A stretch of DNA of 64,000 nt from assembly GCF_002078235.1 (NCBI RefSeq), contig NZ_MSGP01000218.1, forward strand, positions 1-64,000. The letters run 5' to 3'. Position numbers and translations under genes: made by a program. The notes under the pieces were generated by a model. It ran no database searches, had not been told where the DNA came from, and saw nothing but the letters and a program-made list of their open reading frames with translations. The stretch is from Streptomyces viridosporus (GTDB lineage Bacteria > Actinomycetota > Actinomycetes > Streptomycetales > Streptomycetaceae). Numbering within the stretch: the stretch's first letter is position 1; each line of letters starts with the position of its first letter. Of this stretch, positions 1,691 through 10,792 are shown piece after piece.

Positions 1691-4600
1691 TCAGTCCTGG
1701 GAGATGCCCAGCTCGCCATCGATGATCGTGAACAGCTCGTCGACCGAGGCCGAGTTGATCTTGTCGGCGTCGATCTCGTCGACGTGTCCGGCCGCGTCCG
1801 TCTCCGCCTGCCGCAGCCGCCGGCCGAGCTGCTCGAGCCGGTCGGCCAGCGTCGCGTGGTCGGCCGTGGGACCGGCGGCCGCGAGGGCCGCCTCCAGCCG
1901 GTCCAACTCCTGAAGGGGCATGCCGGTCCCGGCCGCCTCGGCCCCGGCGGAGGGCGCCAGTTCGTCCCGCAGGTACTCCGCGAGTGCCGACGGAGTCGGG
2001 TAGTCAAACAGCAGCGTGGACGGCAGCCGACGGCCGGTGACCGTGTTGAGCCGGTTGCGCAGCTCGACGCCGGTGAGCGAGTCGAAGCCGAGCTGCCGGA
2101 ACTCGCGGTACTGCTCGATCGCGGCCGACGAGCCGTGGCCGAGGACAGCGGCGGCCTCGGTCCGTACGGCGCCGAGCACCAGCCGGAGGCGTTCGTCGGG
2201 AGCCGCGCCGGCGAGGCGCGATGCCAAGGTGGCGACCTCCGCCGCCGCGGTGGAGGCGGCGGTACGGCGGCCGGTTCCGGCGAGACCGCGCAACACGGCC
2301 GGTGCGTCGCTCCTCGTGCGCAGCCCGGACAGCTCCAGCCGCATCGGCACCAGCGCCGGGGCGTCGACGGCCAGCGCCGCGTCGAACAACGCCATGCCCT
2401 GCTCCGTCGTCAGCGGGGCCATGCCGTCGCGGGCCATGCGCGCGAGGTCCACATCGGACAGCGTCGCGGTCATGCCGGCGCCCGGCGCCCACGCGCCCCA
2501 GGCCAGTGAGACGGCCGGAAGGCCCGCCGAACGGCGGTGTGCGGCCAGTGCGTCGAGGAAGGCGTTGGCGGCGGCGTAGTTGGCCTGGCCGGCGCCGCCG
2601 ATGACGCCCATGACCGAGGAGAACGTCACGAAGTGGGCGAGTCGCCGGTCCTTGGTCGCCTCGTGCAGGTTCCAGGCCGCGTCGGCCTTCGCCCGCAGCA
2701 CGGTCGCCAGCCGCTGCGGTGTGAGCGAGCCGACCACGCCGTCGTCGAGCACGCCCGCGGTGTGCACGACCGTCGTGAGATCGGGGATGCTCGCGACCAG
2801 TTCACGAGTGGCGTCACCGTCCGCGATGTCGCAGGCGACCACCCGCACCTGGACACCCAGGCCCGCCAGTTCCTCGCGCAGCTCCGTCGCGCCGTCCGCC
2901 GCCGGGCCGCGGCGTGAGGCAAGCACCATCCGGGCCACGCCCTGTCCGGCCAGATGCAGGGCGAGCCTGCTGCCGAGGCCGCCCGTGCCGCCGGTGACGA
3001 GGACCGTGCCGTCGGTGGCGGTCCCGGCCGGCATTGTGAGGGTGATCTTGCCGGTGTGCCTGGCCTGGCTCATGTACCGGAACGCGTCGCCCGCACGCCG
3101 CACGTCCCACGATCGCACCGGGAGCGGCGCCAGCACCCCGGCCTCGAACAGCTCACTCAGTTCGGCGAGCATGCCGGCGATGCGGTCCGGGTCCACCACC
3201 ATCAGGTCGAACGGCAGGTAGCGCACGTCGGGCAGGTCGGCGGGGTCACGCAGGTCCGTCTTGCCCATCTCCACGAAACGGCCGCCGTCGGCGAGCAGGT
3301 CCAGGGACGCGTCGGTGAACTCCCCGGCCAGCGAGTTGAGCACGACGTCGATCCGCTGCTCGCCCAGCACCCTGCCGAACGTCCCGGCGAAGTCGAGCGT
3401 CCGGGAGGAGGCGATGTGGTCGTCCGCGACGCCGAGGGCGCGCAGCGTGTCCCACTTGCCCTCGCTCGCCGTGGCGAACACCTCGGCGCCCAGGTGCCGC
3501 GCCAGCTGGATCGCGGCCATGCCCACACCTCCGGCACCGGCGTGGACGAGTACGCGTTCGCCGCCGCGCAGCCCCGCCAGGTCGACGAGACCGTGGTAGG
3601 CGGTGAGGAACACCAGCGGGACGGCCGCGGCCACCTCGTCCGGCCAAGCCGCCGGCACGGGCGTGAGCAACCGCTCGTCCACGACCGCCAGCGGGCCGAA
3701 GCCACCCGTGATCATGCCCATGACGCGATCGCCGACGCGCACGCCCGTCACCTCGGGGCCGACCTCGACGACCTCGCCCATGCCCTCGGCGCCGGGCGCG
3801 CCCGGGTCGCCGGGGTACATGCCCAGGACGTTGAGTACGTCCCGGAAGTTCACGCCCGCCGCGCGCACCCGTACGCGCACGTGCCGGCCGGCCAGCTCGC
3901 GCTCGGCCTCGGGATACGGGACGAGTGCGATGTCGTCGATGCTGCCCCGCTTCGGGATGTCCAGCCGCCATCCGCTGCCGCCGGGCGGCAGCAGGCCCGC
4001 GTCCGCGCCGAGGCGCGCCAGCCGGGCGGCGTGCACGACGCCGTCCCGCACCCAGCCCTGCGGTTCACCGGACGTCACCAGCGCGCCGTACGCCGCCGGG
4101 AGGTCCCCGCCCTCCGGCAGGTCCAGCAGCAGGAAGCGGCCGGGGTTCTCGGTCTGAGCGGTCCGTACCAGGCCCCACACGGCGGCCGAGGCCGGATCGT
4201 CGCCCGACACCGCGCCGTGTGTCACGAACAGCAGCGGTTCCTCGCTGTCGCGGGACAGCCGCTCCTGCACGGCTTCGAGCGCCCTGGCCGCCGCCGCGTG
4301 TGCCGCCGCCGCCATGTCGCCGGTGGCCGGCGCGAACTCCAGCACCGCGGCGGGCTCGGCCGCCCCGGCCTCCGGCAGCGGCGTCCAGTCCAGTGCGAAC
4401 AGCGAGTCGTACGCGAGAGCCGCGGCGGGCGTGGCGGCCGCCCGCAACGTCAGCGACTCGGCGGCCGCGACCGGTTCACCGAGCACGTCCGCGGCCGTGA
4501 TGGACACGCCCGGGCCGTTCGGGGCCAGGCGGACCCGCAGCGCCGCCGCGCCGGCGGCCGGCAGGGACACTCCCTCCCAGGCGAAGGGCAGGGCACCGGG

Positions 4601-10600: not shown

Positions 10601-10792
10601 CGGGTCGGGGTCGTACAGCGCGTCGAGGTCCCAGCCGCGGTCCGTCGGGAACGGGCCGAGGACGTCCTCACCGTCGCACAGCAGGCGCCACAGCCCCTCC
10701 GGCGAGTCGATACCGCCGGGAAGGCGGCACGCGGTACCGACGATGACCACCGGGTCGATCACTTCCGGGTTCTCGTTGCCGGCTTCGCTCAT
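1691..10792 (-). CDS. Type I polyene PKS S0: KS-S loading module plus fully reducing module 1
   Basis: A 3033-aa PKS that primes the chain. Domains (approximate residues): KS-S 13-435, AT 525-840, ACP 895-965, KS 990-1415, AT 1500-1800, DH 1855-2130, ER 2285-2580, KR 2595-2775, ACP 2870-2945, then a C-terminal docking region. The first KS has Ser184 (codon TCG) in place of the active-site Cys (DTASSSS), the KS-S type that decarboxylates a loaded extender. Its AT has GHSQGE, RVDVVQ and YASH, the methylmalonyl signature. The second KS has Cys1162. Its AT has GHSVGE and the unusual HAYH, read as malonyl. DH ([10 protein letters not shown]), ER (NADPH motif HAGAGGVG) and KR (GGTGGLG, LDD, Ser-Tyr-Asn) all look active. 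Predicted product: a pentanoyl unit from propionate plus malonate. PIMS0 of pimaricin has, as I recall it, a CoA-ligase loading part and no fully reducing module; this protein has neither the ligase nor the extra ACP. GAGGTGG lies nine bases before the ATG. Confidence 0.95.

Follow-up and report, generated by a model that had tools for sequence, protein, structure and literature searches.

The 64,000-nucleotide stretch of Streptomyces viridosporus analyzed here (the window) comprises bases 1-64000 of contig C133 (NZ_MSGP01000218.1; 73,055 bases), part of a draft genome of 8.1 Mb in 986 contigs. Its polyketide synthase (PKS) and tailoring genes very probably represent a lucensomycin cluster, with a route from starter unit to product that would yield C36H53NO13. 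The key protein is S0, a homolog of LcmA/LucA, in which a loading module is fused to a fully reducing module 1. Two clusters of this kind were published in 2021 from other Streptomyces: lcm from S. cyanogenus S136 (MW175861; PMC7875965) and luc from S. achromogenes subsp. streptozoticus NBRC14001 (LC656361; PMC8781583). The cluster is a further member of this published kind, so its identity is not new. The main value of the analysis is that this identity is fixed: we are highly confident that the genome encodes the antifungal lucensomycin, with a butyl side chain where the lcm paper prints propyl.

S0 (3033 aa, ATG start) had been read in the initial annotation as a serine-type ketosynthase (KS), a methylmalonyl-type acyltransferase (AT) and an acyl carrier protein (ACP), joined to a module with dehydratase (DH), enoylreductase (ER) and ketoreductase (KR). 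Pfam, a phmmer scan and the motifs agree with this. In the loading half, KS (residues 13-436) and AT (522-846) are followed by the ACP; module 1 consists of KS (989-1415), AT (1491-1810), DH (1851-2125), ER (2271-2585), KR (2591-2775) and ACP (2831-2905). In KS0, serine replaces the active-site cysteine at residue 184 (TVDTASSSS), and EAHGTGT and KSNLGHT are retained. The DH, ER and KR nucleotide-binding motifs are present, and the ACP motifs read GFDSI and GFDSL. A pattern search for the Ser-Tyr-Asn triad of KR1 returned no match, but the triad can be read in the S0 sequence itself. KR1 also has VLDDG, which we take to be the motif of a B-type KR. Only AT0 and AT8 (in S2) among the ten ATs of the window have the YASH motif. 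AT0 is 82.7% identical to AT8 but only 35-39% identical to the eight malonyl ATs of S0, S2, S3 and S4. When the Protein Data Bank was searched with the loading module, the best matches were DEBS and other PKS modules, and nothing was decisive. The best named relative found for S0 is from S. mutabilis JCM 4400 (95% identity over the whole protein); the one from S. poonensis JCM 4815 has 96% identity over residues 432-3033 only, and the one from S. aureus NRRL B-1941 has 88%.

By module arithmetic, a propionyl starter and 13 extensions yield an aglycone of 30 carbons, with the lactone being C30H44O7. Conversion of a methyl to a carboxyl group, an epoxide and mycosamine lead from there to C36H53NO13 (computed [M-H]- 706.3444, [M+H]+ 708.3590). 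The formula of lucensomycin is thus reproduced exactly, and the carbon count of the initial annotation (a 30-carbon aglycone, equal to lucensomycin less mycosamine) holds. For lucensomycin, [M-H]- was calculated as 706.3444 and observed at 706.3447 (PMC7875965) and at 706.3458 (PMC8781583), and the compound of the luc strain was assigned to lucensomycin by high-resolution and tandem mass spectrometry (PMC8781583). The pentanoyl unit that had been predicted, leaving butyl on the lactone carbon, is in agreement with both module logic and this published mass. A review table (PMC9740855) lists C33H47NO13 for pimaricin and C36H53NO13 for lucensomycin; the difference of C3H6 corresponds to methyl being replaced by butyl. 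The same table has a separate entry, "Arenomycin B (Lucensomycin)", with the formula C36H55NO13. The domain pattern of S2-S4 fits C16=C17, C15-OH, C13-OH with the C12 branch, C11-OH, the C9 ketone, C7-OH, C4=C5 and C2=C3 (in pimaricin numbering).

The lcm and luc clusters correspond to the window in genes, gene order and domain layout (PMC7875965, PMC8781583), and the part of the S. collinus Inha504 gene table that was compared likewise agrees with the window content. All ten complete modules in the window (0, 1 and 6-13) have the domain layout tabulated for LucA/C/D/E and LcmA/C/D/E (PMC8781583). As in these clusters, the loading module and the fully reducing module 1 are encoded in one protein of about 3035 aa, LcmC, LcmD and LcmE have 6 + 1 + 1 modules, module 10 lacks a working KR, and a thioesterase (TE) is terminal. 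Module 10 is KS-AT-ACP in the published domain table (PMC8781583). LucA (modules 0-1) has 3035 aa, compared to 3033 here, and LucC has 9249 compared to 9239; LucD (1789) and LucE (1995) are equal in length to their counterparts (PMC8781583). The published lcm order is lcm2, lcm3, lcmB, lcmA, lcm4-7, lcmE, lcmD, lcmC, lcm8-10, RI, RII, lcm11 and RIII (PMC7875965). The order in the window matches: S1, S0, glycosyltransferase, aminotransferase, P450, ferredoxin, S4, S3, S2, two ABC transporters, P450, two regulators and cholesterol oxidase. A long frame at the RIII position follows past the window end on this contig; over 792 residues, it shares 75% identity with a frame in the relative G097. With gene names given by position, the mycosamine genes, two P450s, a ferredoxin, two ABC transporters, cholesterol oxidase, three regulators and the type II thioesterase (see below) are found in order.

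Pimaricin (natamycin) is a further system for comparison. The initial annotation had matched S2-S4 to pimaricin modules 5-12, which is borne out by module logic, according to which the order of reductive domains is equal, and by the reported colinearity of lcmB-E with pimS1-S4 (PMC7875965); these two were the basis of the comparison. The methyl group of natamycin is butyl in lucensomycin. To our knowledge, the natamycin cluster has no extra reducing module. Natamycin is reported to be loaded by a separate CAL-ACP-KSS-AT-ACP protein with an acetyl starter. In contrast, S0 is fused, and its AT0 is of the methylmalonyl type.

The contig starts within S1 (LcmB), so that its modules cannot be counted from the window alone. 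Contigs C259, C319 and C359 of our draft carry further pieces of S1. A 951-base DNA query from the S0/S1 junction was compared to 392 genomes of the genus (from a larger group, our own genome included) and was matched in 382 of them. Among the matches listed, only our own genome, G097 (90%) and G227 (88%) span the full query; the next-best of those listed has 69% over half of it. S0, S2, S3 and S4 have 86-88% identity to G227 and 88-90% to G097. In G227, a single-contig genome, S1 has 6438 aa and four modules (KS-AT-KR-ACP and three times KS-AT-DH-KR-ACP). This is the layout published for LcmB (KR, then three times DH-KR), and LucB has 6457 aa and covers modules 2-5 (PMC8781583). On the S1 protein of G227, our own pieces map in order to residues 1-544 (window), 674-1994 (C259), 2342-3676 (C319) and 6274-6437 (C359), with 83-88% identity. 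Thus, the four-module S1 of the initial annotation is seen whole in a relative, while three of the four ketosynthases (KS2, KS3 and KS4) and the S1 tail are seen in our own genome. Beside the tail, C359 carries a type II thioesterase and a GDP-mannose dehydratase, which the lcm cluster likewise holds (PMC7875965).

Residues 3677-6273 of the G227 protein, most of modules 4 and 5, were not found in our draft assembly. The corresponding G227 DNA (L110:12930-20000, short of the very end of module 5) gave long matches of at most 78% in our genome, in already-assigned stretches only, compared to the 83-88% protein identity of the assigned S1 pieces. Modules 4 and 5 of G227 are 91% identical over 1602 residues, and the four ATs of its S1 (L110-L111) form one clade (support 1.0) and have equal domain scores. 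Near-repeats of this kind would explain why drafts break inside S1, and an unassembled repeat would be the plain reading of the missing modules 4 and 5.

Two other contigs were considered as parts of S1. C306 was rejected as the S1 end because its PKS gene is an independent one, which ends in a TE and reaches at most 48% identity to S1; the true tail is on C359. The PKS gene of C306 (L004/L003, from 26065 downwards; the contig has 86 N) is a 2483-aa frame with KS-AT-DH-KR-ACP-TE, and its start resembles, by eye, the end of an adenylating enzyme. C625 was rejected because its matches to S1 are at chance level.

The genes and their order, the domains and motifs, the relatives and the arithmetic of the formula are direct results of this analysis. 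We infer every catalytic step of the following route, as well as the presence of S1 modules 4 and 5 in our genome and production in our strain. AT0 would load methylmalonyl-CoA onto ACP0, and KS0 would use its serine form to decarboxylate it to propionyl. Module 1 would add malonyl and reduce it fully, giving pentanoyl. Module 2 in S1 is predicted to add malonyl and, by its KR, to set the hydroxyl for lactone closure, leaving butyl on that carbon. Modules 3-6 would build the tetraene and modules 7-11 the polyol part, with module 8 supplying the C12 methyl and module 10, the KR of which is a remnant, the C9 ketone. Modules 12 and 13 would contribute two alkenes, and the TE would close the 26-membered ring. 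A P450 with its ferredoxin would oxidize the C12 methyl to carboxyl, mycosamine would be attached, and a second P450 would epoxidize C4-C5, resulting in C36H53NO13.

Several points speak against this assignment. Module 5 and parts of modules 2-4 of S1 are absent from the draft assembly. Names of the tailoring and regulatory genes rest on position in the lcm order and on NCBIfam matches, all below the curated cut-offs. The likeness to lcm and luc (MW175861 and LC656361) was judged from published tables and from relatives. The decarboxylation by KS0 is assigned by analogy: KSS loading domains are held to decarboxylate an AT-delivered extender (PMC12843615). Finally, AT0 could take an acyl-CoA directly, as some polyene loading ATs do (PMC12843615). 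If it took propionyl-CoA in this way, KS0 would be idle, and the product would be the same as by decarboxylation. For eurocidin and rimocidin, activity of the loading AT on acyl-CoAs has been shown, even though the loading ATs of polyenes sit in the extender clade (PMC12843615). We nevertheless regard this as quite unlikely for AT0, which is 83% identical to an extender AT (AT8) and keeps YASH where the acyl-selecting eurocidin AT has GAAH, although the motif alone is not decisive (PMC12843615). In addition to its retained EAHGTGT and KSN-GHT motifs, KS0 has Ser 427, 243 residues past Ser 184, which is the spacing of S170 and S413 in NysA; S413 has been linked to decarboxylation. The second serine is also found in G097 and in the Actinokineospora protein L054 (see below), but is Thr in G227, so that it is not conserved in all such loaders. 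A different starter is much harder to accept. If AT0 loaded malonyl, an acetyl starter and a propyl side chain would result, as worded in PMC7875965 ("n-propyl" and "propyl"), and other tested polyene loading ATs recognize malonyl-CoA (PMC12843615). We consider this highly improbable. Yet this paper itself deduces methylmalonyl as the starter and speaks of a C5 unit, and the mass of 706.3447 that it measured is that of the butyl compound, so that its wording clashes with its own data and butyl is correct; the propyl analog would be C35H51NO13 ([M-H]- 692.3288, computed). AT0 is also remote from the malonyl ATs compared (35-39%). PMC7875965 further numbers the modules of lcmB 2-5 but those of lcmC 5-10, which conflicts with the 13 extension modules in PMC8781583.

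A cluster that is broken or silent in our strain, and yields no product, is rather unlikely. It would have a precedent in S. cyanogenus, where the lcm pathway was silent and needed heterologous adpA (PMC7875965), and S1 is incomplete in our draft. Much of the cluster is lacking in the draft of S. poonensis JCM 4815 (G001:C9 ~35743-49800; L017), where the counterpart of window-side position 64432 is joined directly to that of 9499. The stretch between the joined points, with S2-S4, KS0 and most of the tailoring genes, is missing, and S1 is shortened. This copy may be either what a large deletion left behind or the product of misassembly at PKS repeats; it was dropped as a complete reference, and G227 was taken instead. 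In our strain, however, the frames of S0, S2, S3 and S4 are long and unbroken with intact motifs, and the tailoring, export and regulatory genes are present.

A fused loader has been called unprecedented in polyenes (PMC7875965), but ActnS0 of actinospene/kineosporicin biosynthesis is also a loading module fused to module 1, with a serine KS0. ActnS0 has a malonyl-type AT0 and an AT1 assigned as methylmalonyl, the reverse of S0, and lacks an ER; the sugar is perosamine. None of these loader features is found in S0. A protein from Actinokineospora spheciospongiae EG49 (L054) is taken to be ActnS0, based on the species, the serine KS0 and YGSH in AT1. S0 and this protein are 87% identical in KS0 and in KS1, 75% in DH, 77% in KR, 67% in ACP0, 63% in ACP1 and 62% in the C-terminal tail, but only 34% in AT0 and 37% in AT1. 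S0 carries about 320 extra residues (2266-2587), corresponding to the ER. Compared in windows of 60 residues, S0 is closest to L054 up to about residues 441-460, then to module 8 of our own cluster, and after about 860 to L054 again.

Kinship of AT0 and AT8 was analyzed in a FastTree of 264 AT domains (24 from our own genome and G227, 5 from G097 and L054, and 235 from homologous loci; L011, L017 and L047 were left out, and the L054 ATs are included twice). AT0 and AT8 of our own genome, G227 and G097 form an exclusive six-member clade (support 1.0), in which the three AT8s are a clade (0.98). The simplest reading would be an AT exchange inside an ActnS0-like frame, with the ER gained here or lost there. 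We favor, with some reserve, the view that the butyl tail arose by natural domain exchange: the AT of an ActnS0-like loader would have been replaced by a copy shared with AT8, with joins in the KS-AT linker and after the AT, AT1 would have been swapped, and the ER would have been gained. Two results speak against the simple reading of such an exchange. The three AT0s are not a clade, with that of G227 being basal (support 0.11), and in a tree of 18 ATs the AT8s are again a clade, while four AT0s group together and the G227 AT0 is outside. The support labels of the latter tree shift upon re-rooting (the base of eight lcm ATs reads 53) and were not relied on. With 85-86% identity to the AT8s and 82-86% to the remaining AT0s, G227 AT0 is as close to one group as to the other and has no firm place in either; later conversion between AT0 and AT8 in the G227 lineage is possible. 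Since both trees leave G227 AT0 apart from the other AT0s, the trees do not fix the direction of copying, and either AT0 or AT8 may have been the donor. No published account of the AT0/AT8 kinship or of the comparison with ActnS0 was met in a limited literature search, with most subscription papers outside it.

If this exchange took place, S0 would be a natural counterpart of the AT swaps and reductive-loop swaps attempted by PKS engineers, in which one can still read the partner module, the frame and the points of joining. The two natural fused loaders, with 87% identity between their ketosynthases but different AT and ER content, would show where ATs and an ER were exchanged between polyene PKSs. 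This makes the loader comparison of practical use for starter-unit engineering.

The features of the window are listed in Table 1. The Pfam scan covered S0, the S1 piece, S3 and S4; the domains of S2 were obtained from the phmmer domain scan, with queries taken from S0 and the TE query from S4. With the S0-derived queries, the module-10 ACPs of G227 and G097 scored below the threshold. For the module 10 KR in our genome, neither KR pattern was matched; for that of module 11, the Tyr/Asn pattern was matched but not the nucleotide-binding pattern.

Table 1. Genes and S0 domains of the lucensomycin-type cluster in the window
Feature	Position	Strand	Basis
S1 (LcmB) N-terminus (548 aa) with docking domain and KS2, truncated at contig end	1..1645	-	Pfam, domain scan
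S0 (LcmA/LucA homolog), loading module fused to fully reducing module 1	1691..10792	-	Pfam, phmmer scan
ACP1	2078..2302	-	domain scan
KR1 (VLDDG)	2468..3022	-	domain scan, motif
ER1, lacking in L054 (Actinokineospora), a fused loader that is otherwise similar	3038..3982	-	domain scan, motif
DH1	4418..5242	-	domain scan, motif
AT1, malonyl type (GHSVG/HAYH)	5363..6322	-	domain scan, motifs
KS1	6548..7828	-	phmmer domain scan
ACP0	7880..8083	-	Pfam
AT0, methylmalonyl type (GHSQG/YASH), 82.7% identical to AT8	8255..9229	-	scan, motifs, identity
KS0, Cys-to-Ser ketosynthase of loading module	9485..10756	-	phmmer scan, motifs
Glycosyltransferase (lcm4 by position)	10983..12419	+	NCBIfam below cut-offs
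Sugar aminotransferase (lcm5 by position)	12496..13554	+	NCBIfam below cut-offs
Cytochrome P450 (lcm6 by position), putative C12 carboxylation (PMC7875965)	13580..14764	+	NCBIfam below cut-offs
Ferredoxin (lcm7 by position)	14784..14978	+	position
S4 (LcmE), module 13, KS-AT-DH-KR-ACP-TE	15214..21201	-	Pfam, domain scan
S3 (LcmD), module 12, KS-AT-DH-KR-ACP	21238..26607	-	Pfam, domain scan
S2 (LcmC), modules 6-11: DH-KR; KR; methylmalonyl AT and KR; KR; KR remnant; KR	26624..54343	-	domain scan
AT8, methylmalonyl type, sister of AT0; predicted origin of the branch later oxidized to the C12 carboxyl	42128..43081	-	motifs, tree
ABC transporter (lcm8 by position)	54410..56248	+	NCBIfam below cut-offs
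ABC transporter (lcm9 by position)	56245..58122	+	NCBIfam below cut-offs
Cytochrome P450 (lcm10 by position), putative C4-C5 epoxidation (PMC7875965)	58497..59705	-	NCBIfam below cut-offs
Regulator (lcmRI by position)	60271..60978	+	position; no NCBIfam match
Regulator (lcmRII by position)	61267..62013	-	position; no NCBIfam match
Cholesterol oxidase (lcm11 by position), extends past window end	62400..64000	-	NCBIfam below cut-off

The gene order in G227 matches the window through the PKS and most tailoring genes. G227 lacks the P450 at the lcm6 position and the lcm7 ferredoxin, having about 246 bases (L109 ~9747-9993) where the window has 13567-15052. The best P450 in the whole G227 genome is 45% identical to the one at the lcm6 position, compared to 92% for that of G097. 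Methylmalonyl AT8 is retained, and the product of G227 may be a lucensomycin bearing methyl instead of carboxyl at C12. Lower hemolytic activity is common among polyenes lacking the exocyclic carboxyl. The cholesterol oxidase of G227 (L111 ~6700-8373) adjoins the GDP-mannose dehydratase at the S1 end; in the window, this gene adjoins the regulators. No RIII homolog was found in the 100 kb of G227 examined, the L107 side included.

Fused loaders of other make-up were seen in Umezawaea endophytica and Umezawaea tangerina (L018 and L035; open reading frames of about 3480 aa). Their loading module has a TASSG-type serine ketosynthase, a methylmalonyl-type AT and DH- and KR-like stretches, and is followed by a methylmalonyl-type DH-KR module.

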